Assembly (NCBI RefSeq): GCF_018780185.1
Contig: NZ_JADMJX010000084.1
Location: 1 to 32,735, forward strand
Source of the DNA: Rhizobacter sp.
GTDB taxonomy: Bacteria > Pseudomonadota > Gammaproteobacteria > Burkholderiales > Burkholderiaceae_C
Length of the DNA stretch: 32,735 bases
Reading direction: 5' to 3'
Part shown: in pieces, positions 2,016 to 20,612 of the stretch
Layout of the letters: the number at the start of each line of letters is the position of its first letter
How positions within the stretch are numbered: the first letter of the stretch is position 1
The notes under the pieces: generated by a model
The model's input: the letters and a program-made list of their open reading frames with translations, nothing else
Told to the model about the DNA's origin: nothing
Databases searched by the model: none
Program-made: the position numbers and the translations under genes

Positions 2016-2915
2016 TCAGCGGCCTCCCTTGCCGTTGGTGGGGCGTTTTGTCTTGGTGGCCGGTTTGCCGGTCGTTTTGGCGGCGCCGCGCGCCGATTGC
2101 TCGGTCAGCTGGTGGCCGGTGCTCACCACCACGGCCTGGGCCAGGCAGAGCGGCGCCACCAGCGAGCGGAAGGCCTTCTCCGCCCCCAGGCTCAGCTCGA
2201 AGCACACGCGCGCCGACGGCTTGAGCGGCGACAGGGCGCTGTCGGTGATGGCGATCACCGGGATGCCGCGCGCATGCGCAGCGTTGGCCGCGTCGATCAC
2301 CTCTTGCGAGTAGCTGTGGAAGCTCGCGACGATCAGCACGTCTTCGGGCTCGATGTTGTTCAGCGAGTTGGCCAGCATGCCGCCCAGGCCGTCGATCAGG
2401 TAGGTCTTGAGTTCGAGCTGGCTCAGTGCATAGGCCAGGTACGAGGCCACCGGGAAGGCGCGCCGCTGGGCCAGCACGTGCACGTGGCGCGCCGCGCAGA
2501 TCAGCTTGGCGGCGCTCGTGATGTCGGCCTCGGCCACGTTTTCTTCGAGCTGCCCGAGCTCGGACACGGCCTCGCCCACGAACTGGTGCAACACGCCCGA
2601 GCCGCCGTTGTTGGCCTTGCCGTGGCGGCGCAACTGGTCGATGCGCTCGCGGTAGCTGACCGAGCGCTCGACCAGGTGCTCGCGGAACACACCCTGCATC
2701 TCGGAGAAGCCACCAAACTCGAGCGCATTGGCGAATCGGATCAGCGCCGAAGGCTGCACACCGGCCGCATCGGCCACCGCCGCCACCGTGCCGAGCGCGA
2801 GCTCGTTGGGCTTGTCGAGTGCAAAGCGGGCGATCAGCTGCAGTTGTTTGGGCAGCGTGGGGTAGGCGCGTGAGATGGCGTCTTTGAGGTCGTCGTAGTT
2901 CAGAGCGGCGGTCAT
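2016..2915 (-). CDS. MurR/RpiR family transcriptional regulator (HTH + SIS domain)
   Basis: ORF 2016..2948; most plausible start is MTAALNYDDLKDAI at 2915. RpiR HTH (AAGVQPSALIRFANALEFGGFSEMQ) and SIS domain (VLIVASFHSYSQEVIDAANAAHARGIPVIAITD). Abuts iolC with no gap. Confidence 0.9.
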   Translation of the reverse strand: MTAALNYDDLKDAISRAYPTLPKQLQLIARFALDKPNELALGTVAAVADAAGVQPSALIRFANALEFGGFSEMQGVFREHLVERSVSYRERIDQLRRHGKANNGGSGVLHQFVGEAVSELGQLEENVAEADITSAAKLICAARHVHVLAQRRAFPVASYLAYALSQLELKTYLIDGLGGMLANSLNNIEPEDVLIVASFHSYSQEVIDAANAAHARGIPVIAITDSALSPLKPSARVCFELSLGAEKAFRSLVAPLCLAQAVVVSTGHQLTEQSARGAAKTTGKPATKTKRPTNGKGGR

Positions 2916-2931
2916 CGGGTTTTCACAGGTG

Positions 2932-2983
2932 TCAAACACATCAAACACAGAACAAACGTTCTTGCATGAACGGAGAATAGAAC
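2932..2983. promoter_or_regulatory. Candidate operator/promoter region between the RpiR regulator and the divergent ABC operon
   Basis: Perfect tandem 9-mer TCAAACACA-TCAAACACA (2932-2949), followed by inverted repeat GAAC-aaac-GTTC (2950-2961) and further GAAC half-sites at 2968 and 2980, in a relatively AT-rich intergenic stretch. Confidence 0.4.
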
Positions 2984-3020
2984 ATACATTTCATCCTGTC
3001 CAGCATTTGTTTCATTCGAC

Positions 3021-4046
3021 ATGTCCACACAAACCCGACCTGCCCCGCTCGTCACCACGCCGATGGTGTTCACCGTGGCCCTGCTTGCCAGCACACCCCT
3101 GTGGCTGAGTCAGGTGGGGCTGTACCAGTACCTCGCGCTTGAAATCATGATCTGGATGATGTTTGCGCTGGGCCACAACCTGCTGCTCGGCTACGGCGGC
3201 CTGCCCTCGTTCGGGCACGGGGCCTACTTCGGTGTGGGGGCCTATGCCTTCGGCCTGCTGCAGCAGCGTGCCGATGCCGGTTTGCTCGCCGGCCTGCTGG
3301 GCGCGGTGTTGCTGAGCGCCGTAGCCGGCATGCTGGTGGGCGCGTTCATCTCGCACAAGCGCGGCATCTATTACGCGCTGCTCACCATCGCCTTCGGCCA
3401 GGTGTTCTGGTTTGCGGCGGTCAAGCTGCACGGCATCACCGGTGGTGAAGACGGCTTGCTCAACATCAAGCGGCCCGACCTCTCGCTTGGCTTCATCGAC
3501 ATCAAGCTCGGCAGCAACGAAGCCTTCTTCTACTTCGCGCTGGTGCTGTTTGCGCTGGTGCTGGTGGCGCTGTGGCGGCTGATCCACTCGCCGTTCGGGC
3601 GCGTGCTGCGCGCCATCAAGCAAAACGAGATGCGCGCCGCCTTCGTGGGCCACAACGTGTGGCTCTACAAGTGGCTGGCCTTTACGCTGTCGGCGAGCGT
3701 GGCGGGCCTGGCGGGTGCGCTTTTCGCGATGGCGCAGCAATCGGCCTACCCCAACGTCATGAGTCTGCACAACTCGGGCTTCGTCGTGATGATGGTGCTG
3801 ATCGGTGGCGGCCTGGTGAGCTTCTGGGGCCCGGTGATCGGCGCGCTGGTGTTCATCCTGACGAGAGACTTGCTGGGCGCCTACACCGAGACCTGGCTGC
3901 TCTGGTACGGCCTGGTGTTCATGGTGATGGTGCTGTTCCAGCCCGACGGCGTGGCCGGTGCGTGGCAGAAGGCGCGGGCACGCTTGGCGCGGCGCAAACA
4001 ACCGGCTCCTGCACCGTCCCTCAACCACACCCCGAAGGAGGCATGA
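3021..4046 (+). CDS. Branched-chain amino acid-type ABC transporter permease (LivM-like)
   Basis: 341 aa hydrophobic protein; LivM-type motifs (NLLLGYGGLPSFGHGAYFGVGAYA, RAIKQNEMRAAFVG, ASVAGLAGALFA). Confidence 0.9.
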   Translation: MSTQTRPAPLVTTPMVFTVALLASTPLWLSQVGLYQYLALEIMIWMMFALGHNLLLGYGGLPSFGHGAYFGVGAYAFGLLQQRADAGLLAGLLGAVLLSAVAGMLVGAFISHKRGIYYALLTIAFGQVFWFAAVKLHGITGGEDGLLNIKRPDLSLGFIDIKLGSNEAFFYFALVLFALVLVALWRLIHSPFGRVLRAIKQNEMRAAFVGHNVWLYKWLAFTLSASVAGLAGALFAMAQQSAYPNVMSLHNSGFVVMMVLIGGGLVSFWGPVIGALVFILTRDLLGAYTETWLLWYGLVFMVMVLFQPDGVAGAWQKARARLARRKQPAPAPSLNHTPKEA

Positions 4047-8703: not shown

Positions 8704-10110
8704 ATGAACAACACCCTCATCAGCGGCTGGGCCATTGCTGCCGCGTTGGCCGTTGCCAGCCTGGCCGCGTGTGGCGGCGGCGGGGGTGGCAGTGCCCCGC
8801 CTCCTCCGGCACCACCCCCACCGCCGGCAACGGGGTGGTCGGTCACGTCGCCACCGCTGTCGGCCGGTGGCTCAGGCAGCGCCAAGGTGGTGGTAGACGC
8901 TTCGGGCCGCGCGCTCGCCGCGTGGCTGACGCTGCGCGCCGGCACGCTGATCGACGACGACCTGGTGGTGAGCCGCTACGAGCCTGCCAGTGGCTGGAGC
9001 GCACCGCAGGCGCTCGAATCGCGCCTCGGCGACGTGACACGTTTCGAGATGGCGATGGATGCCGCCTCGGGCCGCGCCGTCGTGCTGTGGACGCAGGCCA
9101 GCGACACCAGCAACAGCGGCGCCTGGGCGCGCCACTTCGACCCCGCCGGCGGCTGGACGCCGGTGCAGGCGCTCAGCACCGCCACCGGCGTGGTCGATGT
9201 GCTGAGCGTGGGCATGGACGTGCAAGCCAATGCCGTGGCCGCCTGGTCGCAGCTCGACGGCTCGCGCTTCAGCATCTGGGGCAACCGCGGCAGCGCCGCC
9301 GGCACCTGGGGCAGCGCGCAGCTGCTCGAAAACATGGACGAGCTTGGCCGCGTCGACGGCAACCCACGCATCGCCGTGGCGCCGCAGGGCGACGCGCTCG
9401 TGGTGTGGCAGGCCAGTGGCGGCACCCCCGTCAACCGCGGCACCTGGACCAACCGCTACACCGCCGGCGGCGGCTGGGGCACGGCGAGCCAGCTCGTCTC
9501 GGTCTCGGGCGGTTCGGCCCCCGACATCGCGATCGACGCGAACGGCAACGCGGTGATGGTGTGGTCGCAGATCAGCGTGGTCTCGGTCACCGAGATGTAC
9601 GCCCTGATCCAGGCCAAGCGCTACCAGGCCGGCGCCTGGGGCGCGCCGCTGCAAGTGGCGCGTGAGCTGGGCGCCAACAGCGTGCTGAGCACCGTGCACG
9701 TGAAGATGAACGCGGCCGGTGCGGCGCTGGTGGCGTGGGGGCAGGGCGACGAATCGATCCGCGCCACGATCGCATCAGCGGGCGGGAACTGGCCCGCACC
9801 CAGCATCGTGAAACCGGTGGGATCGCGCTCGGCGGCGACCGGCGTGCGCGCGGCCATCGACGGCGAGGGCAACGCCTTTCTCGCCTGGTCACAAGGCAAC
9901 GACGTCGGCACCGTCGACACCATGCTGAGCGCCTACACCGTGGCCGGTGGCTGGGTGGCGGGCGTGGCGCACGACAACATCAACGAGATCGCCACCGACC
10001 CGGCCATCGCGATGGATGCGCGTGGCAACGCCTGGTCCCTGTGGACGCAGTACACGGGCGCATCCACCGGCACGCAGATCGTGGCGCGGCGTTTCAGCTC
10101 GGGGCGCTGA
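8704..10110 (+). CDS. Repeat-containing (beta-propeller-like) lipoprotein
   Basis: MNNTLISGWAIAAALAVASLAACGGGGGGSAPPPPAPPPPP: lipobox with Gly/Pro tether; repeated units like IAIDANGNAVMVWSQ...RYQAGAWGAPLQVA. Confidence 0.8.
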   Translation: MNNTLISGWAIAAALAVASLAACGGGGGGSAPPPPAPPPPPATGWSVTSPPLSAGGSGSAKVVVDASGRALAAWLTLRAGTLIDDDLVVSRYEPASGWSAPQALESRLGDVTRFEMAMDAASGRAVVLWTQASDTSNSGAWARHFDPAGGWTPVQALSTATGVVDVLSVGMDVQANAVAAWSQLDGSRFSIWGNRGSAAGTWGSAQLLENMDELGRVDGNPRIAVAPQGDALVVWQASGGTPVNRGTWTNRYTAGGGWGTASQLVSVSGGSAPDIAIDANGNAVMVWSQISVVSVTEMYALIQAKRYQAGAWGAPLQVARELGANSVLSTVHVKMNAAGAALVAWGQGDESIRATIASAGGNWPAPSIVKPVGSRSAATGVRAAIDGEGNAFLAWSQGNDVGTVDTMLSAYTVAGGWVAGVAHDNINEIATDPAIAMDARGNAWSLWTQYTGASTGTQIVARRFSSGR

Positions 10111-10153
10111 CGCGTCGCCGCCCTCCACCCCACTCACTCAACCAGGAAACCAC

Positions 10154-10459
10154 ATGACCCGAACTCTGCTTGTTGCCCTTGCCGTGGCTGCCGTGGCAGC
10201 CGCCGGCTGTGCCTCGATGGCGGTGACCGACCAGGCCCTCGTCGACCGCACGGCCTTCGCGCTCGGGCTCGACAAGAGCGCCTTCACCATCAGCAACCGC
10301 ACCGATGAAGGCACCACCACCCGTTATGCGGTGAAGACCAAGGCCGGGCAGGAATACAACTGCTTCGTCGGCGGCTCGTTCAATGTGACCGGGCGCTCGG
10401 TGTCCGAGGCCATCTGTACGCGCAAGGGCGAGCCCATGAAGAACCCCTTGTTGCGCTGA
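10154..10459 (+). CDS. Small putative lipoprotein
   Basis: MTRTLLVALAVAAVAAAGCASMAVTDQ...: signal peptide with lipobox AAGC; 101 aa; AGGAAAC ribosome-binding-like region upstream. Confidence 0.7.
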   Translation: MTRTLLVALAVAAVAAAGCASMAVTDQALVDRTAFALGLDKSAFTISNRTDEGTTTRYAVKTKAGQEYNCFVGGSFNVTGRSVSEAICTRKGEPMKNPLLR

Positions 10460-10464
10460 CGGTG

Positions 10465-11337
10465 ATGAGCGCCACCCTCGACGCCTGGCAGCGCCAAGGG
10501 CGTTTCATCGACTGGCGTGGCCACCGGGTGTTCGTGGCCCAGGCCGGCCGCGGCCCCGCGCTGCTGCTGGTCCATGGCTACCCGATCGGCTCCTACGACT
10601 GGCATGCGGTGTGGGACAACCTCGCCACGCGCTTCACCCTCATTGCACCCGACATGCTGGGCCTGGGCTTTTCCGACAAACCGGCCGGCCACGCCTACTC
10701 GCTGCAAGACCATGCCGACCTGCACGACGCGCTGATCCAGCGACTCGGTTTGCGCCGCCTGAGCGTGATGGCGCACGACCTCGGCGTGAGCGTGGCGCAA
10801 GAGCTGCTCGCGCGGCAACTCGAAGACGCCCGCCGCCCGCAAATCGATTCGGTGGTGCTGCTCAATGGCGGCTTGTGCCCCGAGGCCTACCAGCCGCGTG
10901 TCATTCAACGCCTGCTCTCGTCACCGCTCGGCCCCTGGATCGGCCCCCACATTCCGCGCGCGGCCTTCGACCGCTCGGTGCGCCGGCTGTTCGGCCCCAA
11001 GACAGCGGCGTCCAACGACCTGCTTGACGATTTCTGGCGCCTGGTCACACACAACGACGGCCTGCGGGTGGCGCACGCCGTCGGGCGCTTTTATGTCGAC
11101 CGGCTGGCCTGCCGCGACCGCCTGGTCGAGCCACTGTTGCGCCGCACCGTGCCGACCCGGCTGATCAACGGCGCCGCCGACCCCAACTCAGGCCGCCACA
11201 TGGCCGAGCGTTACCGTGCGCTGGTGCCGAGCGCCGACATCGTGAGCCTGGAGCAGGTGGGCCACTGGCCGCAGATCGAAGCGCCGCAGGCCGTGCTGGC
11301 CGCAGCCATGCCGTTTCTCATCGGGCAGGCGGCGTGA
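10465..11337 (+). CDS. Alpha/beta hydrolase
   Basis: ORF from 10462 (GTG) or 10465 (ATG); LLLVHGYPIGSYDWHAVWDNLATRFTLIAPDMLGLGFSDKP, MAHDLGVSVAQELLAR, VGHWPQIEAP. Confidence 0.92.
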   Translation: MSATLDAWQRQGRFIDWRGHRVFVAQAGRGPALLLVHGYPIGSYDWHAVWDNLATRFTLIAPDMLGLGFSDKPAGHAYSLQDHADLHDALIQRLGLRRLSVMAHDLGVSVAQELLARQLEDARRPQIDSVVLLNGGLCPEAYQPRVIQRLLSSPLGPWIGPHIPRAAFDRSVRRLFGPKTAASNDLLDDFWRLVTHNDGLRVAHAVGRFYVDRLACRDRLVEPLLRRTVPTRLINGAADPNSGRHMAERYRALVPSADIVSLEQVGHWPQIEAPQAVLAAAMPFLIGQAA

Positions 11338-11349
11338 ATGCCGCGCGGC

Positions 11350-11382
11350 CTACAACGGCAGCTCGGTGAAGTAACGCCCGCC
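11350..11382 (-). pseudogene. Remnant of a flavin reductase 3' end (GGRYFTELPL-stop)
   Basis: Reverse complement ggcgggcgttacttcaccgagctgccgttgtag = GGRYFTELPL*; matches 30/33 nt of the intact flavin reductase 3' end at 19867-19899; all three differences are synonymous. Confidence 0.75.
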
Positions 11383-11586
11383 TCGGCGCCTTCCCGATGG
11401 CTGTACAGCGGCTTAATCGTGGCGTATGCGTCCGCCCATCGTGTCCGCTGCCTCGCTGGCCTGCGCCAGCACGGTCTTCCTCGCTTCGTTGGCTTCACCC
11501 ATCGGGTGAGGTTGCCAAAACTCAACGAACCGCACCAATCCTCAAGATCCACGCGCTTCGCGCACCTTCAACTGCCGTTCTTAGGT

Positions 11587-14130
11587 TCAATGTGGTGATG
11601 CCGAGTCATCAAGTGCATCGAGCACCCCGAACGCAAGCTTGGCTATCTCGTCGTCGCGCAAACCGGCGCCCGCGGCCACCAGCTGTTTGAACGCGAACGG
11701 GCCCAGGTGATTGGCGGCGAGTTGCTCGACCCTCTGTGTTGCGCGAGCCTCGTTGATTTCGCGCGAGCTGCCGTTGCCGGCGTAGCACGCGTTGGCATAC
11801 CCGAGCAAGCGACTGGCTGAGCGGGGTCGGCCTTCGATCGCTGCCAGCAAGGCCAGGTAGTCAGCCCAGTAAGGTTGCCAGGCCATCTGCAGCGCCTGCG
11901 ACCACCCCTCCACGGCGAGCTGCCTGGCCTGCGTCGTCTCGTTTTTGGACAACAACGCCGCCGTGAGGTTGAGGCGTGCCGCAGGCAGAGCCGCGAGTTG
12001 CCGTGTCTCGTGCAGTTGCGCCTGGAGCGCTACACCGCACGCGATGGCTTCGTCAACGCGCCCGTGGGCGAGCAGGCTGTCCATCAGGTTGGCCTGTGCC
12101 ACCAGCAGCTGCCAGGACCAACCCGCCTGGTCATACAGCGAAAAGGCGCGGTGGCGCCATTCGATCGCGGCTTCAAACTTGCCTCGTGCGCTGAACCAGC
12201 AAGCCACGGCAGCGGCGCCCTGGGCACGCACCACCGCAGGCCAGTGGCTGTCTTCAATCGAGCCCAGTTCGTTGATCTCGGCGTGTTGCTCATCATCGGG
12301 CTCTGCGACTTCGCAGTACACCAGGATCGAGAGTGCGCGGTACAAGCCCACCGGGTCGCCCAGATCCCTGAAGAGTCTGACCGCGTGCATGGCATGGCGG
12401 CGTGCGAGCGCCGGCTGCGAGGCACCCCAGTCGAATGCGGCTTCCAGATTCCAGCGCGCCCGCAGCGGCGCCGGTAGTGCATCGGTCACTAGCGGGCGGG
12501 TGGATTCGAGCAAGCGGCGCCGGTCTTGCGGGCGTTCGTTGGAGACGACGAGTGCGAGCGACGCGGCCAGCGACACCGCCGTCTCGGCGTCGTGGTTCAA
12601 GGCCCAGGCGCAGGCGGCGCGCCCGCTGTCCAGGTCGGGCATCAACGCAGCACGCCAATGGTCCACCGCCACTCGGCCTTCAAAGCACTCGACATAGGCA
12701 TCTTCAAAGAGCACGCGGCAGGCCAGCGCGTGCCTGCGATGCAGTTCTTCGGCCTCGCCCGCTTCGCGCAGGCGTTCGATCGCAAAGGCACGTGTTGTCT
12801 CCAACAGGCGATAGCGCACCGGATCGAGCCGCTCAATGGCAACCAGAGAGCGATCGACCAGGCCGCCGAGCGCATCGAGCACGCTCCACGCATCGAGCTG
12901 CGAATCGGCGACTATTTGCTGGGCACTGGCCAGTGAGAAGGTGTTCGCAAAAACGCCCAGGCGCTGCAGAACCGTTTGCTCGGTGTCGCTTAGAAGCGAG
13001 TGGCTCCATTCCATCGCGGCCCGCAGCGTCTGGTGACGCTCGGGCGCGCCGCGGCGGCCGCCGGTCAGCGCCCGAAAGCGTTCGTCCAGCACAGCCAAGA
13101 GGGCGGGCAAGCCGAGAAAGGGCGCACGTGCTGCCGCCAGCTCGATGGCCAGCGGCAGGCCGTCCAGCCGGCGACAGACCTCGACGGCGAGTGCGATGTT
13201 GCCGGCCGTCAGAACGAAGCGTGTGTTGGCCGCTTTCGCGCGCTGCGCAAACAACGCCACCGCGCCGTAACGCAGCGCCTCGTCGATGGGCGTGGTGCTC
13301 TCGGGCACGGCCAGGGTGTTGAGCCGGTAGACGGTCTCCACCGACAGGTTCAGAGGCACCTGGCTGGTCACGATCAACCGCACACCCGGTGCAGTGTCGT
13401 GCACCGCTTGCGCCAGCTGCGAGACGGCGCCGACCAGGTGCTCGGCATTGTCGAGCGCGACCAGCATCTGCAGCGGCTGCACGGCGATCAACAAGGTCTT
13501 GAGGGGTTCGCCCGCTGCCGAATTGAGACCCAGCGCGGTCGATATGCACCCGACCACCAGATCGGGGTCGGTGAGCGCGGACAAGTCGACCCAGCACACG
13601 CCATGCTCATAGACGCGGCGGCGGCTGTGCAGCAGCCACTGGGCGAGACGCGACTTGCCGACGCCGCTCGGGCCTACCAGCGTGATCAGGCCGTGCTGGG
13701 ATATCAGCTCGCTCAGCGCGGCGAGATCGTCGTCGCGACCGACCAGCGGCTGGATCGCGTCGGGCACATTGGTTCGCCTCGGGGGCAATGCCGGGGCGGT
13801 GGCGTCTTGCCTGGGTGTCGGATCAGTGCCGAGCAGGCTCATCGAGAACCGGTAGCCCAACCCGGGGATGGTCGCGATGGCCTGCGGCCCCAGGAGCTTG
13901 CGCAAGCCCGACACCTGGACCGGCAGGTTGGCCTCTTCGACCACCAGCCCGGGCCAGACCTCATCCAGCAGCTCGGCCTTCGTGACCACGCGGTCGCGGC
14001 GTTCGATCAGCGCCAGCAACAGATCAAAGGCGCGCGTACCGATCGCAAGCGCACAGCCGTCGTCCAGCAGCTGCCGCTCGGCAGGCAGCAGTTCGAAATG
14101 GCCGAAACGAATGCGATTGGGCACCATCAC
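11587..14130 (-). CDS. Winged-helix (Trans_reg_C) DNA-binding domain plus STAND/NB-ARC-like ATPase regulator
   Basis: 847 aa; N-terminal OmpR-type wHTH (FGHFELLPAERQLLDDG...VVTKAELLDEVWPGLVVEEANLPVQVSGLRKLLG...IPGLGYRF), Walker A LVGPSGVGKSRLAQ, Walker B-like LVALDNAEHLV, helical repeat C-terminus. Confidence 0.9.
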   Translation of the reverse strand: MMVPNRIRFGHFELLPAERQLLDDGCALAIGTRAFDLLLALIERRDRVVTKAELLDEVWPGLVVEEANLPVQVSGLRKLLGPQAIATIPGLGYRFSMSLLGTDPTPRQDATAPALPPRRTNVPDAIQPLVGRDDDLAALSELISQHGLITLVGPSGVGKSRLAQWLLHSRRRVYEHGVCWVDLSALTDPDLVVGCISTALGLNSAAGEPLKTLLIAVQPLQMLVALDNAEHLVGAVSQLAQAVHDTAPGVRLIVTSQVPLNLSVETVYRLNTLAVPESTTPIDEALRYGAVALFAQRAKAANTRFVLTAGNIALAVEVCRRLDGLPLAIELAAARAPFLGLPALLAVLDERFRALTGGRRGAPERHQTLRAAMEWSHSLLSDTEQTVLQRLGVFANTFSLASAQQIVADSQLDAWSVLDALGGLVDRSLVAIERLDPVRYRLLETTRAFAIERLREAGEAEELHRRHALACRVLFEDAYVECFEGRVAVDHWRAALMPDLDSGRAACAWALNHDAETAVSLAASLALVVSNERPQDRRRLLESTRPLVTDALPAPLRARWNLEAAFDWGASQPALARRHAMHAVRLFRDLGDPVGLYRALSILVYCEVAEPDDEQHAEINELGSIEDSHWPAVVRAQGAAAVACWFSARGKFEAAIEWRHRAFSLYDQAGWSWQLLVAQANLMDSLLAHGRVDEAIACGVALQAQLHETRQLAALPAARLNLTAALLSKNETTQARQLAVEGWSQALQMAWQPYWADYLALLAAIEGRPRSASRLLGYANACYAGNGSSREINEARATQRVEQLAANHLGPFAFKQLVAAGAGLRDDEIAKLAFGVLDALDDSASPH

Positions 14131-14415
14131 CTCATTTCACAAGAGCACGCGGTCGCTCTCGAGGCGGTTCAGATCGTCTGGCGACGGGGCAGCTTCTGTG
14201 CCGGACGGTCGAGTCTATCGAAACCGCCCGCCCCGGCCTGTCGAGGGGCCCGCGCGCATGCCGCCCGACCCTCTCTTCGACCCCGGGCCCAGGGCCATCG
14301 GCATTCAGGCATGAGCCCCATGCAGCGTTCGCTCTCGGGGTGTTTTAGAACGTTTAAAGACGGCGCAGCTTCGTTGCCAGACAGTCGGTGCCTCGACACG
14401 GCCAGGGTGCCACTC

Positions 14416-17028
14416 ATGAACAACTCACTTGTGCTCCGAAGCGAGGGCTGGCGCGCTGCGCTGCGCCGCAACGTCATGGCGGGCGTGTGCGCCCTGGTCA
14501 CCGCGTGCGGTGGTGGGGGTGGTGCTCCGCCACCGCCACCCGCTGCACTGCCCCCGACCCTCACGCAGCAACCCGCCAGTCTCAGCGTGACCGAAGGGCA
14601 GGCCGCGAGCTTCACCGTCGCTGCGACGGGCGACGCGCCGCTCGCCTACCAGTGGCAGCGCAACGGCGCCGACATCCCCGGCGCGACCGCCCCCACCTAC
14701 GTGCTGGCGGCCACCGTGCTCGGCGATGGCGGGGCCACCTTTCGTGCCGAGGTGAGCAACGCGGCCGGCAACACGACCAGCAACGCCGCCACGCTCACCG
14801 TGATGGTGAGCGTGCCGGTGCTCACCATCACGCTGCAGCCGGTGGCCACCACGGCCGTCGCCGGAACGCAGGCCAGCTTCAGCGTGGCCGCCACCTGCAG
14901 CGCCGGAACACTCGGGCTCAAATGGCAACGCGGCCACACCTCGGGCGGCATTCTCAACTGGGCCGATATCGCGGCCGCCAACGCGAGCACGTACAGCTTG
15001 TCCACAGCCATCGGCGACAGCGGCGTGCAATTCCGTGCCGTGCTCGACTGCGGCGGGCTGAGCATCACAAACAGCCAAGCCGCGCTTCTCACCGTGACAC
15101 CGCCGCCCACGGTCGCCATGGCTTTGCTGCCCACCGTCGGCTTGCGCCCGCAGGCCGAGATCTTCAGCGTGGCCGGCATCGACCAGGACGCAGCCGGCAG
15201 CTTCAGCTTCATCACCTCAAACCGGATCAAGCGTCTGAGTGCCGACCTGAGCAGCATCACGCCGGTCGCCGGCGCAACCCTGCCCGGGGCCGCTGACGGC
15301 ACCGCCGATGTCGCCTTGTTCCGCCAACCGCTGGGGCTGGCGCAAGACGCTGCCGGCAACCTCTATGTGGCCGACACCGCCAACTACACCATTCGCCGCA
15401 TCGCCCCCAACGGCACCGTGAGCACGCTGGCAGGTACGGCCGGGGTGTCGGGCACCGCCGACGGCACGGGCGCGGCTGCACGCTTCTCGCGCACCAGTGC
15501 GATCGCCATGGGGCCGGACGGAGACCTTTATGTGGCCGACCAAGACAACTGCCGCATCCGCCGTGTCACGCCGGCCGGCGTGGTGAGCACCTACGCGGGC
15601 AGCGTCTTTGGCGTTGAGGATGGCGCGCCCTTGACCGCACGTTTCGTCGGACCCAGCGCCGTGGCGGTGGCCGCGAACGGCGATGTGCTGGTGGCCGACG
15701 GCCCCCGCATCCGGCGCATCGTGCGCAGCGGCGGCGGTGCTGCGTCGGTGCAAACGCTGGCCGGCAGCGGGGCGAACGATCCCGCCAGCCCCGACGGCGT
15801 CGGCATCGCGGCGGTGGTCAACCCCAGCGCCATGGTCGTGCGCGGCAATACGCTTACCTTTCGCGACGCCAGCGGCATGCTGCGCCAGATCGATCTGACG
15901 AGTGCCGTCGTCACGACCTTGGCTGGCTCGCGTGTGCTCGGCGCAGGTTTTGTGGATGGCACCGTCCCCACCGCGCGCATTGATATCGCTGGCGGCGTGA
16001 CGCTCGCGTCGGGCGGCGGGTTCATGCTGGCCGAAAACCGCGCGCTCCGCCAGGTCAGCGCGACCGGCGTGGTGCACACGATCGCCTCGGGCTTCGCGCA
16101 GGGCATGGCGGCCGCTGGCGTGGGCACGCTCACGCAGATGCCGTTTGCAAGCCTGGCCAGCAGCGGCGGTTTGCAGGCCGTGGCCATCGACCCGGCAGGC
16201 AACGCGGTCGTGGTCGAGACGGGAACCCGGCTCGTGCGGCGCATCAGCCCGGCCGGTGTGGTCACGCTGGCAGCCGGCCTCACGGCGGGGCCGGGGCCAG
16301 GCAGCGTGATCGACGGGGTGGGCAGCGCGGCGCAGTTCAATGTCGCGTTCGCGGCCATCGCGAGCGACAGTGCCGGCGTGCTCTACCTGGGCGACAACTA
16401 CGGCGTGCGCCGCATCGCGCTCGACAACACCACGACCTTGCTCGCAGGGTCGCGCACCGACCCGGGCGCGGTTGACGGTAACGCGGTCACGGCCCGCTTC
16501 ATGGGGATTCGTGGCGTGGCCGTGAAACCCGCGGGTGATGTGTACGTGGCCGACAGCAGCAACACGATTCGCCGCGTGGATGCGGCGGGCGCCGTCAGCA
16601 CCTATGCCGGCGTGATGGGGCAGGGCGGCAGCACCGACGGGCCGGTGGCCACGGCGCGCTTCACGCTGCCCGGGCCGATGGCCTTCGCGCCCGACGGCAG
16701 CCTGTTCGTCGTCGACAAGATCGCCGGCAACGGCGTGATCCGCCGGATCGCCCCTGACGGCGCCAGCGTGAGCACCGTCGCCCTTCCGGCCGACAGCCAG
16801 GTGACCGCGCTGGCTGTCGATGCCACCGGCACGCTCTATTACGCCGGCTACCCAGGCCTCATGCGGTTGCCACCCGGTGGCACGCCCAGCGTGCTGGTGC
16901 CGCGCGGTGCTGGCGTGGTGCTCGGCGCCAACCCCAGCGTGGGCGACGTCGACGGCATCGCCGTGCTGGCGCCCGGCCAACTGGTCGTGCTCAGTGGCGG
17001 CCAGATCCTGAGGGTGACGCTGCCCTGA
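14416..17028 (+). CDS. Lipoprotein with Ig-like domains and NHL-repeat beta-propeller
   Basis: MNNSLVLRSEGWRAALRRNVMAGVCALVTACGGGGGAPPPPP lipobox/tether; Ig-like (TQQPASLSVTEGQAASFTVAATGDAPLAYQWQRNGADIPGAT); repeated NHL units (PLGLAQDAAGNLYVADTANYTIRRIAPNGTVSTLAGTAG). Confidence 0.85.
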   Translation: MNNSLVLRSEGWRAALRRNVMAGVCALVTACGGGGGAPPPPPAALPPTLTQQPASLSVTEGQAASFTVAATGDAPLAYQWQRNGADIPGATAPTYVLAATVLGDGGATFRAEVSNAAGNTTSNAATLTVMVSVPVLTITLQPVATTAVAGTQASFSVAATCSAGTLGLKWQRGHTSGGILNWADIAAANASTYSLSTAIGDSGVQFRAVLDCGGLSITNSQAALLTVTPPPTVAMALLPTVGLRPQAEIFSVAGIDQDAAGSFSFITSNRIKRLSADLSSITPVAGATLPGAADGTADVALFRQPLGLAQDAAGNLYVADTANYTIRRIAPNGTVSTLAGTAGVSGTADGTGAAARFSRTSAIAMGPDGDLYVADQDNCRIRRVTPAGVVSTYAGSVFGVEDGAPLTARFVGPSAVAVAANGDVLVADGPRIRRIVRSGGGAASVQTLAGSGANDPASPDGVGIAAVVNPSAMVVRGNTLTFRDASGMLRQIDLTSAVVTTLAGSRVLGAGFVDGTVPTARIDIAGGVTLASGGGFMLAENRALRQVSATGVVHTIASGFAQGMAAAGVGTLTQMPFASLASSGGLQAVAIDPAGNAVVVETGTRLVRRISPAGVVTLAAGLTAGPGPGSVIDGVGSAAQFNVAFAAIASDSAGVLYLGDNYGVRRIALDNTTTLLAGSRTDPGAVDGNAVTARFMGIRGVAVKPAGDVYVADSSNTIRRVDAAGAVSTYAGVMGQGGSTDGPVATARFTLPGPMAFAPDGSLFVVDKIAGNGVIRRIAPDGASVSTVALPADSQVTALAVDATGTLYYAGYPGLMRLPPGGTPSVLVPRGAGVVLGANPSVGDVDGIAVLAPGQLVVLSGGQILRVTLP

Positions 17029-17074
17029 GCGCGCGCCCTCCCTCACACCCACTTGCCTTTTCACGGGAGAGACC

Positions 17075-19831
17075 ATGAACACACTTGTCTTGAACACGCG
17101 GCGCGCGAGGGCCACCGCGATGGTGGCCGCCGCGGCCTTCACCCTGGCCGCATGCGGTGGTGGCGGCGGCGATTCACCGCCCCCACCACCACCCACAGAG
17201 ACCCTGTTCGTTCCCGCCAACGCCTGGACCGGTGCCGCGCCAACCGGCGCGCAGACGCTGACGGCCGACGAGTTCCGACGCCGGCAGGTGGCCGGCGAGC
17301 TGATGCTCGTCACCTCGGCCACGCAGGACGCGCAGCGCAGCGCACAGCGAGCGCATGTGGCGGCCGAGCGGGCCTTCCTGGAAAGCCAGCCCGACCTGAG
17401 CGATGCGGTGAGGGCCTTGCTGGCGCAAGCGGCCGCGGCCCCCGACCTCGAGGCCGGGGCGGTCGCCTCGCTGGCCGGTGGGCGCAGGGTGGCGCTGAAC
17501 AGCCTGGGCACCGCCATCGTCAACGCCGCCGCCGCCCACCGGCGTGCGCGCGACCCGGCCCTGGCCCTGGCGGCCTACGAGTTGTCGCACGCGCTGCTCG
17601 ACGATGCGCTGAAGGCGCAGCTGCCGGCACCCGCCACGCTGGCCGGTGCCACGCTCGCGCAGGTCCGGCAGGCGGCGCTGCAGATGGAAGCGGCGCTTGC
17701 CGCGCTGCCCGACATCGACAACACGCGCCTCGACCCGAGCGCGCCGCCCACGCCGTCCACACCATCCGGCACACCGAACGGCAGGCAGCGTGCGTTGGCG
17801 TTCAGCCCCGGTGCCGGCAGCGACAACGACGGGACCTGCGCAGCCACCGGCCTGGCGCGGCGCTATCACTTTCCGCTGCGCAACTTCGTGTCACCCGTCA
17901 AGGACCAGGGCGAGCGCGGCCTGTGCTGGGCCTTCACCGCCATTGCCGCGGTGGAAAGCCGCGAGCAGGTGCAGCTGGGCACGACACCCAACCTGTCGGA
18001 GCAGTTCCTGGCCAACCGGGTCAAGCTGCTGTGGTCGCCGAGCGACTTCGTCGATGGCGGCTCGGCGGCCTTCGCGCTCAACACCGCGGAAGACCTCTTC
18101 CAGCGCCTGCGGGTCGAAACCGCGTGGACCTACAACCCGGCGGCAGGCCGGCCCGCCAATGCGTTCGACGCCGGCGTGGGCGGCACCTCGGCGTCGTACA
18201 CCGGGGCCTGCAACGGCTACACCGGCACCTGCTCCGAATCGGCGCACCAGAGCGAATGGGCCTGCGCCTCGCTGCTGGGGGGTGCGCTCTTCTGCGCCCA
18301 CGTGAACCAGAGCTTCCCCGACGCGGGCGTGCGCGGCAGCCGCGTGCTGCCCGTGTGGGCCAGCGGCCAGTCGTGGGACGTGGCCATCCTTCGCACGCAC
18401 CTGGCCGCCGGCCGCTCGCTGATCGCCACCTTTCCGGTCTACGAAGGCTTCATGGCCGCCCCGGCCACGGGCATCGTGTCGACCTACCTGCGCCAGAGAC
18501 GGGACGCCACGGGCAACCTGGTGGACGGCAGTTATGGCGACCACCTGGCGCAGATCGTCGGCTTCGTCAGCAACGAGCAGCTCTCGCTGCCCGGCGGACC
18601 GCCGAGCGAGGTGGGCGGCGGGGGCTACTTCATCCTGCGCAACTCATGGGGCTGCAACGCGGGCGACGCCGGCTACTACTACGTGCCGGCCGATTACGTT
18701 CGCGACAACTTCCATTCGCTCGAGGTGCTCAACATGCCGCCCAACCGCAGCGCGCGCTGGAATGCCGACCAGCTGGCCCCGGGCGGCACCGCCGGCCTGA
18801 GCGTGGCCCTGCGCAACAACGCCGCAGCCAGCTTGCGCGTGCGCAGCGAACTCGCGGCCGAGATCCTCGTCAACCACCCGGTGGCGAACTATGTGCGGCT
18901 CACCGCCAGCTCGGACCGCGATGGCCTGCTGTTCGATGGGCAGTGGCTGGTCAATGCGCCGGTGGGCGGCAGCCTCTTCGCCAACTCGCTGCCGGTCACC
19001 TTCCAGACCGAAGGGATGCGGCGCGTGACGCTGGTGGCGCGCTACGGCTCGCAGCAGGTGACCACCACCAACGACGTGATGGTGCTCAACGCGGCGCCCA
19101 CCCTCGCCTTCGAGACCAGCGGCACGCCGCAGCAGAACGAGAACTTCGTGGTGAACGTGGTGGCCACCGACGTCAACGAAACCGACCCGAGCGCGATGTG
19201 CAACGCCATGACCTGGTCGGTGAGCGCCCCCGACACCCTCGTCTCGGGCAGCGGCTGCACGCGCGTCATCCGCTTCGGTGCCGCCGGCACCCGCCAGGTG
19301 AGCGTCGCCACGCAAGACCGGGAGGGCCTGCCGGCGGCTGCCACCGGCAGCTTCAACGTGGCGCCGCCGCCGGTCAACCCGTACCCGCGCATCAACGCCT
19401 TCAGCGTGATCTCGCGCGACGTGCTGCTCATCGAGAACCAGCCCTTCGGCTGCATCCCGCGCACGGTGGCCAACAACGCGGTGATCGACCTGCGCCAGTT
19501 CGGGTGCAAGCCCGGCATCGTCGGGCCCGACCTGTCACGCTTCTTCGGCGAGGTGGCCGTCGAGAACCCCTCGGGCGAAGTGCTCAGCTACGACTGGACC
19601 TACACCGACTACTACGCCAACGGCACGGCCTCGCCACGCTCCGGCACGGCGAGAACGGCCACGCCGCGGGTGGAGCTGAACCGTTTCCTGTATGTCGGCC
19701 TGGACCCGGTGACCACCTCGGCCTTCCGCTGCACGCTCGACGTCCGCGTCAACGCGCCCGAGGCCTCGCGCAGCAAGACCCTGCGGGTGTGGAGCGGTCA
19801 GTGCATCAACGTGGAGGTGGCGCCGCGCTGA
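17075..19831 (+). CDS. C1 (papain-like) family cysteine peptidase lipoprotein with Ig-like C-terminal region
   Basis: Lipobox TLAACGGGGGDSPPPPPP; papain motifs FVSPVKDQGERGLCWAFTAIAAVES (Cys), YGDHLAQIVGF (His), GYFILRNSWG (Asn). Confidence 0.88.
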   Translation: MNTLVLNTRRARATAMVAAAAFTLAACGGGGGDSPPPPPPTETLFVPANAWTGAAPTGAQTLTADEFRRRQVAGELMLVTSATQDAQRSAQRAHVAAERAFLESQPDLSDAVRALLAQAAAAPDLEAGAVASLAGGRRVALNSLGTAIVNAAAAHRRARDPALALAAYELSHALLDDALKAQLPAPATLAGATLAQVRQAALQMEAALAALPDIDNTRLDPSAPPTPSTPSGTPNGRQRALAFSPGAGSDNDGTCAATGLARRYHFPLRNFVSPVKDQGERGLCWAFTAIAAVESREQVQLGTTPNLSEQFLANRVKLLWSPSDFVDGGSAAFALNTAEDLFQRLRVETAWTYNPAAGRPANAFDAGVGGTSASYTGACNGYTGTCSESAHQSEWACASLLGGALFCAHVNQSFPDAGVRGSRVLPVWASGQSWDVAILRTHLAAGRSLIATFPVYEGFMAAPATGIVSTYLRQRRDATGNLVDGSYGDHLAQIVGFVSNEQLSLPGGPPSEVGGGGYFILRNSWGCNAGDAGYYYVPADYVRDNFHSLEVLNMPPNRSARWNADQLAPGGTAGLSVALRNNAAASLRVRSELAAEILVNHPVANYVRLTASSDRDGLLFDGQWLVNAPVGGSLFANSLPVTFQTEGMRRVTLVARYGSQQVTTTNDVMVLNAAPTLAFETSGTPQQNENFVVNVVATDVNETDPSAMCNAMTWSVSAPDTLVSGSGCTRVIRFGAAGTRQVSVATQDREGLPAAATGSFNVAPPPVNPYPRINAFSVISRDVLLIENQPFGCIPRTVANNAVIDLRQFGCKPGIVGPDLSRFFGEVAVENPSGEVLSYDWTYTDYYANGTASPRSGTARTATPRVELNRFLYVGLDPVTTSAFRCTLDVRVNAPEASRSKTLRVWSGQCINVEVAPR

Positions 19832-19866
19832 CCCGCGCGGGCAGAAGCGCAGCGACTGGGGGGCCC

Positions 19867-20376
19867 TTACAAGGGCAGTTCGGTGAAGTAACGCCCGCCG
19901 TGGTAAATCAACGGGAGCGCACCTTCACGCCGCTCGCAGCGCTCGACCTCGCCGACGAAGATGATGTGGTCACCCTCTTCGTACTGGCTGCGGTTGAAAC
20001 ACTCGAACACCGCGGCGCTGCCTTCGATCACCGGCGCACCGCCGGCGCCGCGGCGGAAGGTGACGCCGGCAAAACGATCAACGTCTTTGGATGCAAACCG
20101 CTCGGCCAGCGTGCGCTGCTCAGCCGCGAGGATGTTGATGGCGTAGTGCGAGCCGGTGCTGAACGCCGGCATCGAGCCCGCCCGCTTGGACAGGCTCCAC
20201 AGCACCAGCGGGGGCGACAGCGAGACCGAGTTGAACGAGTTGGCCGTGAGGCCCACCGGGCGGCCGGTGGGGTCGAGTGCGGTGACCACGGTAACGCCGG
20301 TGGCGAAGCTGCCGAGCGCGGAGCGGAATTCCTGGGCGGAAAAGCTGGGGGTGACCGGGCGCAGCAACGCGTTCAT
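19867..20376 (-). CDS. Flavin reductase family protein
   Basis: Start MNALLRPVTPSFSAQEFRSALGSFATGVTVVTALDPTGRPVGLTANSFNSVSLSPPLVLWSLSKRAGS; C-terminus IYHGGRYFTELPL. Confidence 0.92.
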   Translation of the reverse strand: MNALLRPVTPSFSAQEFRSALGSFATGVTVVTALDPTGRPVGLTANSFNSVSLSPPLVLWSLSKRAGSMPAFSTGSHYAINILAAEQRTLAERFASKDVDRFAGVTFRRGAGGAPVIEGSAAVFECFNRSQYEEGDHIIFVGEVERCERREGALPLIYHGGRYFTELPL

Positions 20377-20612
20377 GCACCGATTGTGGCGGAGTCGGCT
20401 GCAGGCGGCCAACTCCTATCTAGGGGGTCTCTCCGGGGAGGGAAATGTGGGCACTCCATGGCCGCCGCATGAGACTTATTCACGCACTTGGCCCGCACGC
20501 CCCCCGGCGCCGGGATGCGCTGGATGTGGTTTGACCTGCTGCCGCGTGTGGGAGCGCGGATGTCGCTCGCCGAACGGTAGAGTTCGCGTTCACCCCAGAA
20601 GGAGCCCGACAC

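Follow-up and report, generated by a model that had tools for sequence, protein, structure and literature searches.

The window (the whole 32,735-nt stretch of DNA analysed, from the draft assembly G000, which has 411 contigs) carries a flavin reductase gene (FR) whose last 33 nt, at 19867-19899, recur in the same orientation at 11350-11382. The two copies enclose exactly three genes, as the earlier note on this DNA had claimed: a regulator, a lipoprotein and a C1 protease. The features of the region, with the evidence for each in brackets, are:

10462-11337, plus strand: alpha/beta hydrolase gene, the left native neighbour (Pfam Abhydrolase_1; orthologue beside FR in genome G006, contig C179, 89% aa, and in genome G009, 77%)
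11338-11349, no strand: native 12-nt spacer from the hydrolase stop to the FR stop, ATGCCGCGCGGC (identical in the G006:C179 empty site)
11350-11382, minus strand: remnant, the displaced native FR 3' end, GGRYFTELPL* (unbroken alignment to G006:C179 running into its FR)
11383-11586, no strand: left end of the insert, with no counterpart found in the genus (weak short matches only, outside G000)
11587-14130, minus strand: regulator of 847 aa with a winged-helix DNA-binding domain (Trans_reg_C) and an AAA/NB-ARC-type ATPase (domain search; nearest family relatives 51-52%)
14416-17028, plus strand: lipoprotein of 870 aa with Ig-like and NHL repeats (domain search; orthologue fragment, 78% aa, in contig C259 of G006)
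17075-19831, plus strand: lipoprotein-type papain-family (C1) cysteine protease of 918 aa (Pfam Peptidase_C1; papain relatives in the PDB)
19832-19866, no strand: spacer from the protease stop to the FR stop, right end of the insert (homologous to the G006:C259 spacer)
19867-19899, minus strand: 3' end attached to FR today, probably imported (repeat comparison and the codons of relatives)
19867-20412, minus strand: FR gene, its body native-like (Pfam Flavin_Reduct; 89% nt to G006:C179)
20469-20580, plus strand: M14 carboxypeptidase gene, of which two ends are left (20469-20488 is the gene start in G006:C179, 20493-20576 the gene end in G006:C259)

The M14 carboxypeptidase gene is next after FR in most of the genus; in the window its first codons are fused to its last codons. 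To the right of this remnant there are a 140-aa protein without assignment and a GNAT-like gene, followed by an MFS gene.

Read on the minus strand, 11350-11382 is GGCGGGCGTTACTTCACCGAGCTGCCGTTGTAG and 19867-19899 is GGCGGGCGTTACTTCACCGAACTGCCCTTGTAA. The copies agree at 30 of 33 positions, including the whole of the first 20 nt of the FR tail, and both encode GGRYFTELPL*: the three differences (GAG/GAA, CCG/CCC and TAG/TAA, remnant/FR-attached) are all synonymous. Outside the repeat there is no similarity on either side (32 out of 100 matches over the next 100 nt). The pair is the top ungapped 33-nt self-match within the window, only one other pair reaching 28/33 (between two ABC ATPase genes), and order-3 Markov simulations of the window (n=12) gave best self-matches of 25-27/33. 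BLAST of the ~1-kb neighbourhood of one copy against the other gives E=1e-9, and the remnant region finds just the two copies in the 5.02-Mb genome assembly. The repeat of the FR 3' end with synonymous-only differences, first described in the earlier note, thus stands well beyond simulation.

An assembly artefact could in principle produce the same picture, if two strains had been joined through the FR tail: G000 is a draft in 411 contigs, and G006, with two FR contigs, evidently mixes two lineages. But FR and a close hydrolase copy are each present just once in G000, and a join at 11382/11383 needs shared sequence, of which the left end of the insert shows none; we consider such a chimera very improbable.

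The three genes between the repeats

The catalytic triad of the protease (C, H and N) is visible in QGERGLCWAF, DHLAQIVGF and RNSWG; by its domain and these catalytic residues the protein qualifies as a member of the papain family (C1). The lipoprotein and protease genes, separated by a 46-nt gap, are likely to form an operon under the divergent regulator, and the proteins look secreted, given their lipobox-like LAACGGGG starts. In the divergent promoter region that separates the regulator gene from the lipoprotein gene there is a 63-nt direct repeat (14149-14211 and 14325-14387, 76%), whose copies are possibly paired operators; upstream of lipoprotein relatives it has no more than weak matches.

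A full-length relative of the protease (62%) is found in another family of the same order, without the other two cluster genes; judged from sequence, this relative (L183, 11627-15848) adjoins AbiEi/AbiEii-like genes and a type I restriction subunit. Relatives of the lipoprotein (56-62%) and of the regulator (51-52%) in other genera have no partner genes within the stretches read, and G006:C259 shares the lipoprotein-protease pair only. Because each gene occurs singly elsewhere, the three are, as far as their relatives tell, not a conserved unit or element, and the word 'module', used for them earlier, was too strong. Nor are they new families. A piece of a regulator gene on G006:C436 was considered as the cluster regulator and rejected, since it corresponds to a paralogue in G000:C410.

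Among the viral contigs searched there is no relative of the protease, and matches to the lipoprotein are Ig domains only; among the plasmids searched the protease reaches 39% at best (Deinococcus) and the regulator-type proteins stay below 60%. Composition was tried as evidence of foreign origin and rejected: GC3 of the cluster genes (0.80-0.91) brackets that of the surroundings (about 0.87), with no clear signature.

Empty sites and the FR locus across the genus

Eleven genomes of the genus were compared. A close homologue of the hydrolase lies beside FR in two of them, G006 (contig C179) and G009, and in both the two genes are adjacent and convergent, with a single FR 3' end and no insert, which is the empty-site form with one 33-bp copy that an insertion leads one to look for. 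Window positions 8814-11382 align continuously with 1-2591 of C179, into its FR gene, and 19874-20488 align with 2566-3180 of the same contig; the 12-nt spacer that separates the two stop codons is the same in C179 as at the remnant. G009 is colinear with window positions 818-24121 apart from the insert and a stretch to the right of FR. The identical spacer and the unbroken alignment show that the copy at 11350 is the native FR end still in its original place, and that 11383-19866 is inserted DNA that placed three genes between FR and the hydrolase. The match at 11350 has the native FR position, rather than lying inside an unrelated conserved element, and the same three genes are not common to all relatives. 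The empty sites in two genomes of the same genus thereby support the earlier proposal that the segment was inserted at, or exchanged through, the FR 3' end. An empty site with a single repeat copy and direct repeats at both borders, two features by which integrative elements are recognized, are both present at this locus.

FR, M14 carboxypeptidase, MFS transporter and M48 protease genes form a conserved block in most of the genus; the gene past the FR 3' end varies, and may be a long convergent gene, a lip8 gene, the hydrolase or the present cluster. A second FR tail near FR is absent from the nine other genus contigs scanned, so that the window alone has one. A strict tail pattern matches in 29 out of 401 genomes of the family, with two copies in G000 only; other elements ending in the FR-tail sequence, for which the earlier note had proposed a search, do not occur among these strict matches and the sampled genomes. 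The variable 3' neighbour and the sole second tail in the window together indicate that the 3' side of FR changes often without leaving such scars. Nearby, two genes have lost their interior by deletion and kept their ends, M14 in the window and the protease in C259.

Native copy, age and a donor-like arrangement

At each of the three differing sites the remnant agrees with C179 or has the state commoner among relatives; the alternative state is in the FR-attached copy. It is likely, then, that the remnant keeps the ancestral codons at all three sites and that the FR-attached copy is derived. If the repeat had arisen in place, the probability that all three changes fell on the FR copy is about 0.011 (9.5 synonymous versus 33 free sites). 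The split between window and C179 has a dS of 0.36-0.44 (about 0.18-0.22 per lineage), and the lack of any amino-acid-changing difference in the remnant has P=0.006-0.015 if it is older than this split and has decayed neutrally. These age and polarity probabilities are based on 33 nt and assume neutrality; taken together they fit the fairly recent import of a functional FR tail of foreign origin. The earlier note had derived the remnant from another functional allele: two functional alleles are indeed favoured (P about 0.01 against duplication), but the polarity is probably the reverse, the FR-attached copy being the likely import and the remnant native. The leucine codon TTG is found in both repeat copies and in no relative examined, which suggests either a close donor allele or two origins of TTG.

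The same numbers bear on an in-place origin, by target duplication in a transposon-like event or by local duplication of the FR end. Such an event would explain a direct repeat at the borders, but no transposase or terminal inverted repeats were noted there, 33 nt would make a long target duplication, and all the differences are on the functional copy (P=0.011); it is scarcely credible as the origin of the repeat.

In G006:C259 the lipoprotein gene, what is left of a protease gene (locus L014; L080 735-895; its start and its last ~50 nt), the same spacer and FR are contiguous. The neighbourhood of cluster and FR thus exists in another lineage too. Contig C259 begins within the lipoprotein gene, leaving the left side of the cluster outside the contig, so that this lineage with the cluster beside the anchor gene is donor-like for the right side only; a donor carrying the left side was not found in the genomes searched. 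The G006 bin has two distinct FR contigs, C179 and C259, and therefore probably mixes two lineages. Between FR and M14, L014 also carries a ~180-nt palindrome-ended, MITE-like insert (1486-1668; GGCGACGCTGAACAAGTCTC ... GAGACTTGTTCAGCGTCGCC), and a 16-nt pattern from its end has no other site in the eleven genus genomes.

The FR of C259 is 84% identical (nt) to that of C179, and the window FR 89%; the FR tree is ((window, C179), C259), with support 0.97/0.96. The last 60 nt of the window FR are 78% identical to C179, as against 95% for the next 120 nt, a drop that is not significant alone, the three lineages being about equidistant there with C179-like and C259-like sites mixed. Between window and C259 the lipoprotein has diverged by a dS of 0.63, much like FR (0.52), so the cluster is old in the genus. 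This similarity and the FR tree would both agree with an insertion made before the lineages of C259, C179 and the window parted, C179 having later lost the insert by recombination through the 33-nt repeats. On that history, however, the remnant is expected to have taken 6-9 changes, and none that alters an amino acid is seen (P 0.002-0.015), which makes it distinctly unlikely.

Routes of acquisition and comparison with known systems

The most likely route, to which we give a little better than an even chance, is an FR-anchored recombination with congener DNA that was joined on the left within the native end of FR. The ancestor would have had the hydrolase and FR adjacent and convergent, and would have acquired 11383-19866 (regulator, lipoprotein and protease) and an FR 3' end from a congener whose cluster already adjoined FR. 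On the right side FR would have provided the homology that anchored the exchange. On the left, the incoming DNA would have been joined within the native FR, 33 nt before the gene end, either directly (by homology-facilitated illegitimate recombination, HFIR) or with a second FR copy that was largely removed by a later deletion, of the kind seen in M14 and in the C259 protease. FR would thus have stayed intact, with its own body and the donor's synonymous tail, and the native tail would be the scar; under this model the outer edge of the repeat is at the FR stop because homology ends there. Only one non-homologous junction is needed, at 11382/11383, a position set by the C179 alignment. Against FR-anchored recombination, the FR tree places the window with C179 and not with C259, and the genomes searched yielded no donor that has the cluster's left side.

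Site-specific integration accounts for both borders at once. The cluster would be an integrative element, or part of one, with an attP carrying the FR 3' end, its integrase later lost or acting in trans; its synonymous tail would have made FR whole again and pushed the native tail to the opposite border. Elements of this kind leave behind what is seen here, a direct repeat with precise borders and only synonymous differences, an intact target gene and a native end out of place (PMC8409611), and the identical first 20 nt of the tail could hold the crossover. But the insert has no integrase, excisionase, relaxase or phage gene, there is no tRNA at its borders, the three genes occur singly elsewhere, and second tail copies are as rare as described above (one of 29 family genomes that match the strict pattern, and none near FR in nine genus contigs). 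Rfam and tRNA searches gave nothing at the insert borders, and PADLOC and PHROGs found no defence or recombinase family in the insert; these last two and the domain searches bear out the earlier statement that no integrase is present. We regard this integration as unlikely. A narrower form, in which the cluster is a small integrase-less cargo unit moved in trans by a recombinase recognizing the FR 3' end, with a 33-bp attachment site and repair of the target gene, seems decidedly improbable.

The locus is a clear-cut case of gene gain of an ordinary kind, most likely by ordinary recombination. The gain is well resolved, as the empty site, the filled site and a donor-like arrangement are all found within one genus, and codon differences in a 33-nt scar reveal the native copy. 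The 3' end of a gene can be exchanged for a synonymous foreign one with the gene left intact, and att-like repeats alone are therefore no proof of an integrase.

SGI1 is inserted at the 3' end of trmE, and SGI1-like islands at yicC (PMC8409611); the present case shares with them insertion at a gene 3' end, an intact gene and short direct repeats at the borders, but has no integrase or mobilization genes, only three cargo-like genes, and no further element occupying this site in relatives. The HFIR described for natural transformation (de Vries and Wackernagel 2002; discussed in PMC6382021) is similar in combining one homologous anchor, here FR, with one non-homologous junction, so that foreign DNA is gained beside the anchor. 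HFIR is known, however, from laboratory transformants of other species, whereas here it is deduced from a scar, and the junction is within the anchor gene itself, leaving a short duplication. Finally, although its left border is 33 nt inside FR and not in a homologous flank, the locus resembles cases in which genes are gained through homologous recombination in the core genes beside them, with the FR-M14-MFS-M48 block on one side and variable genes on the other.
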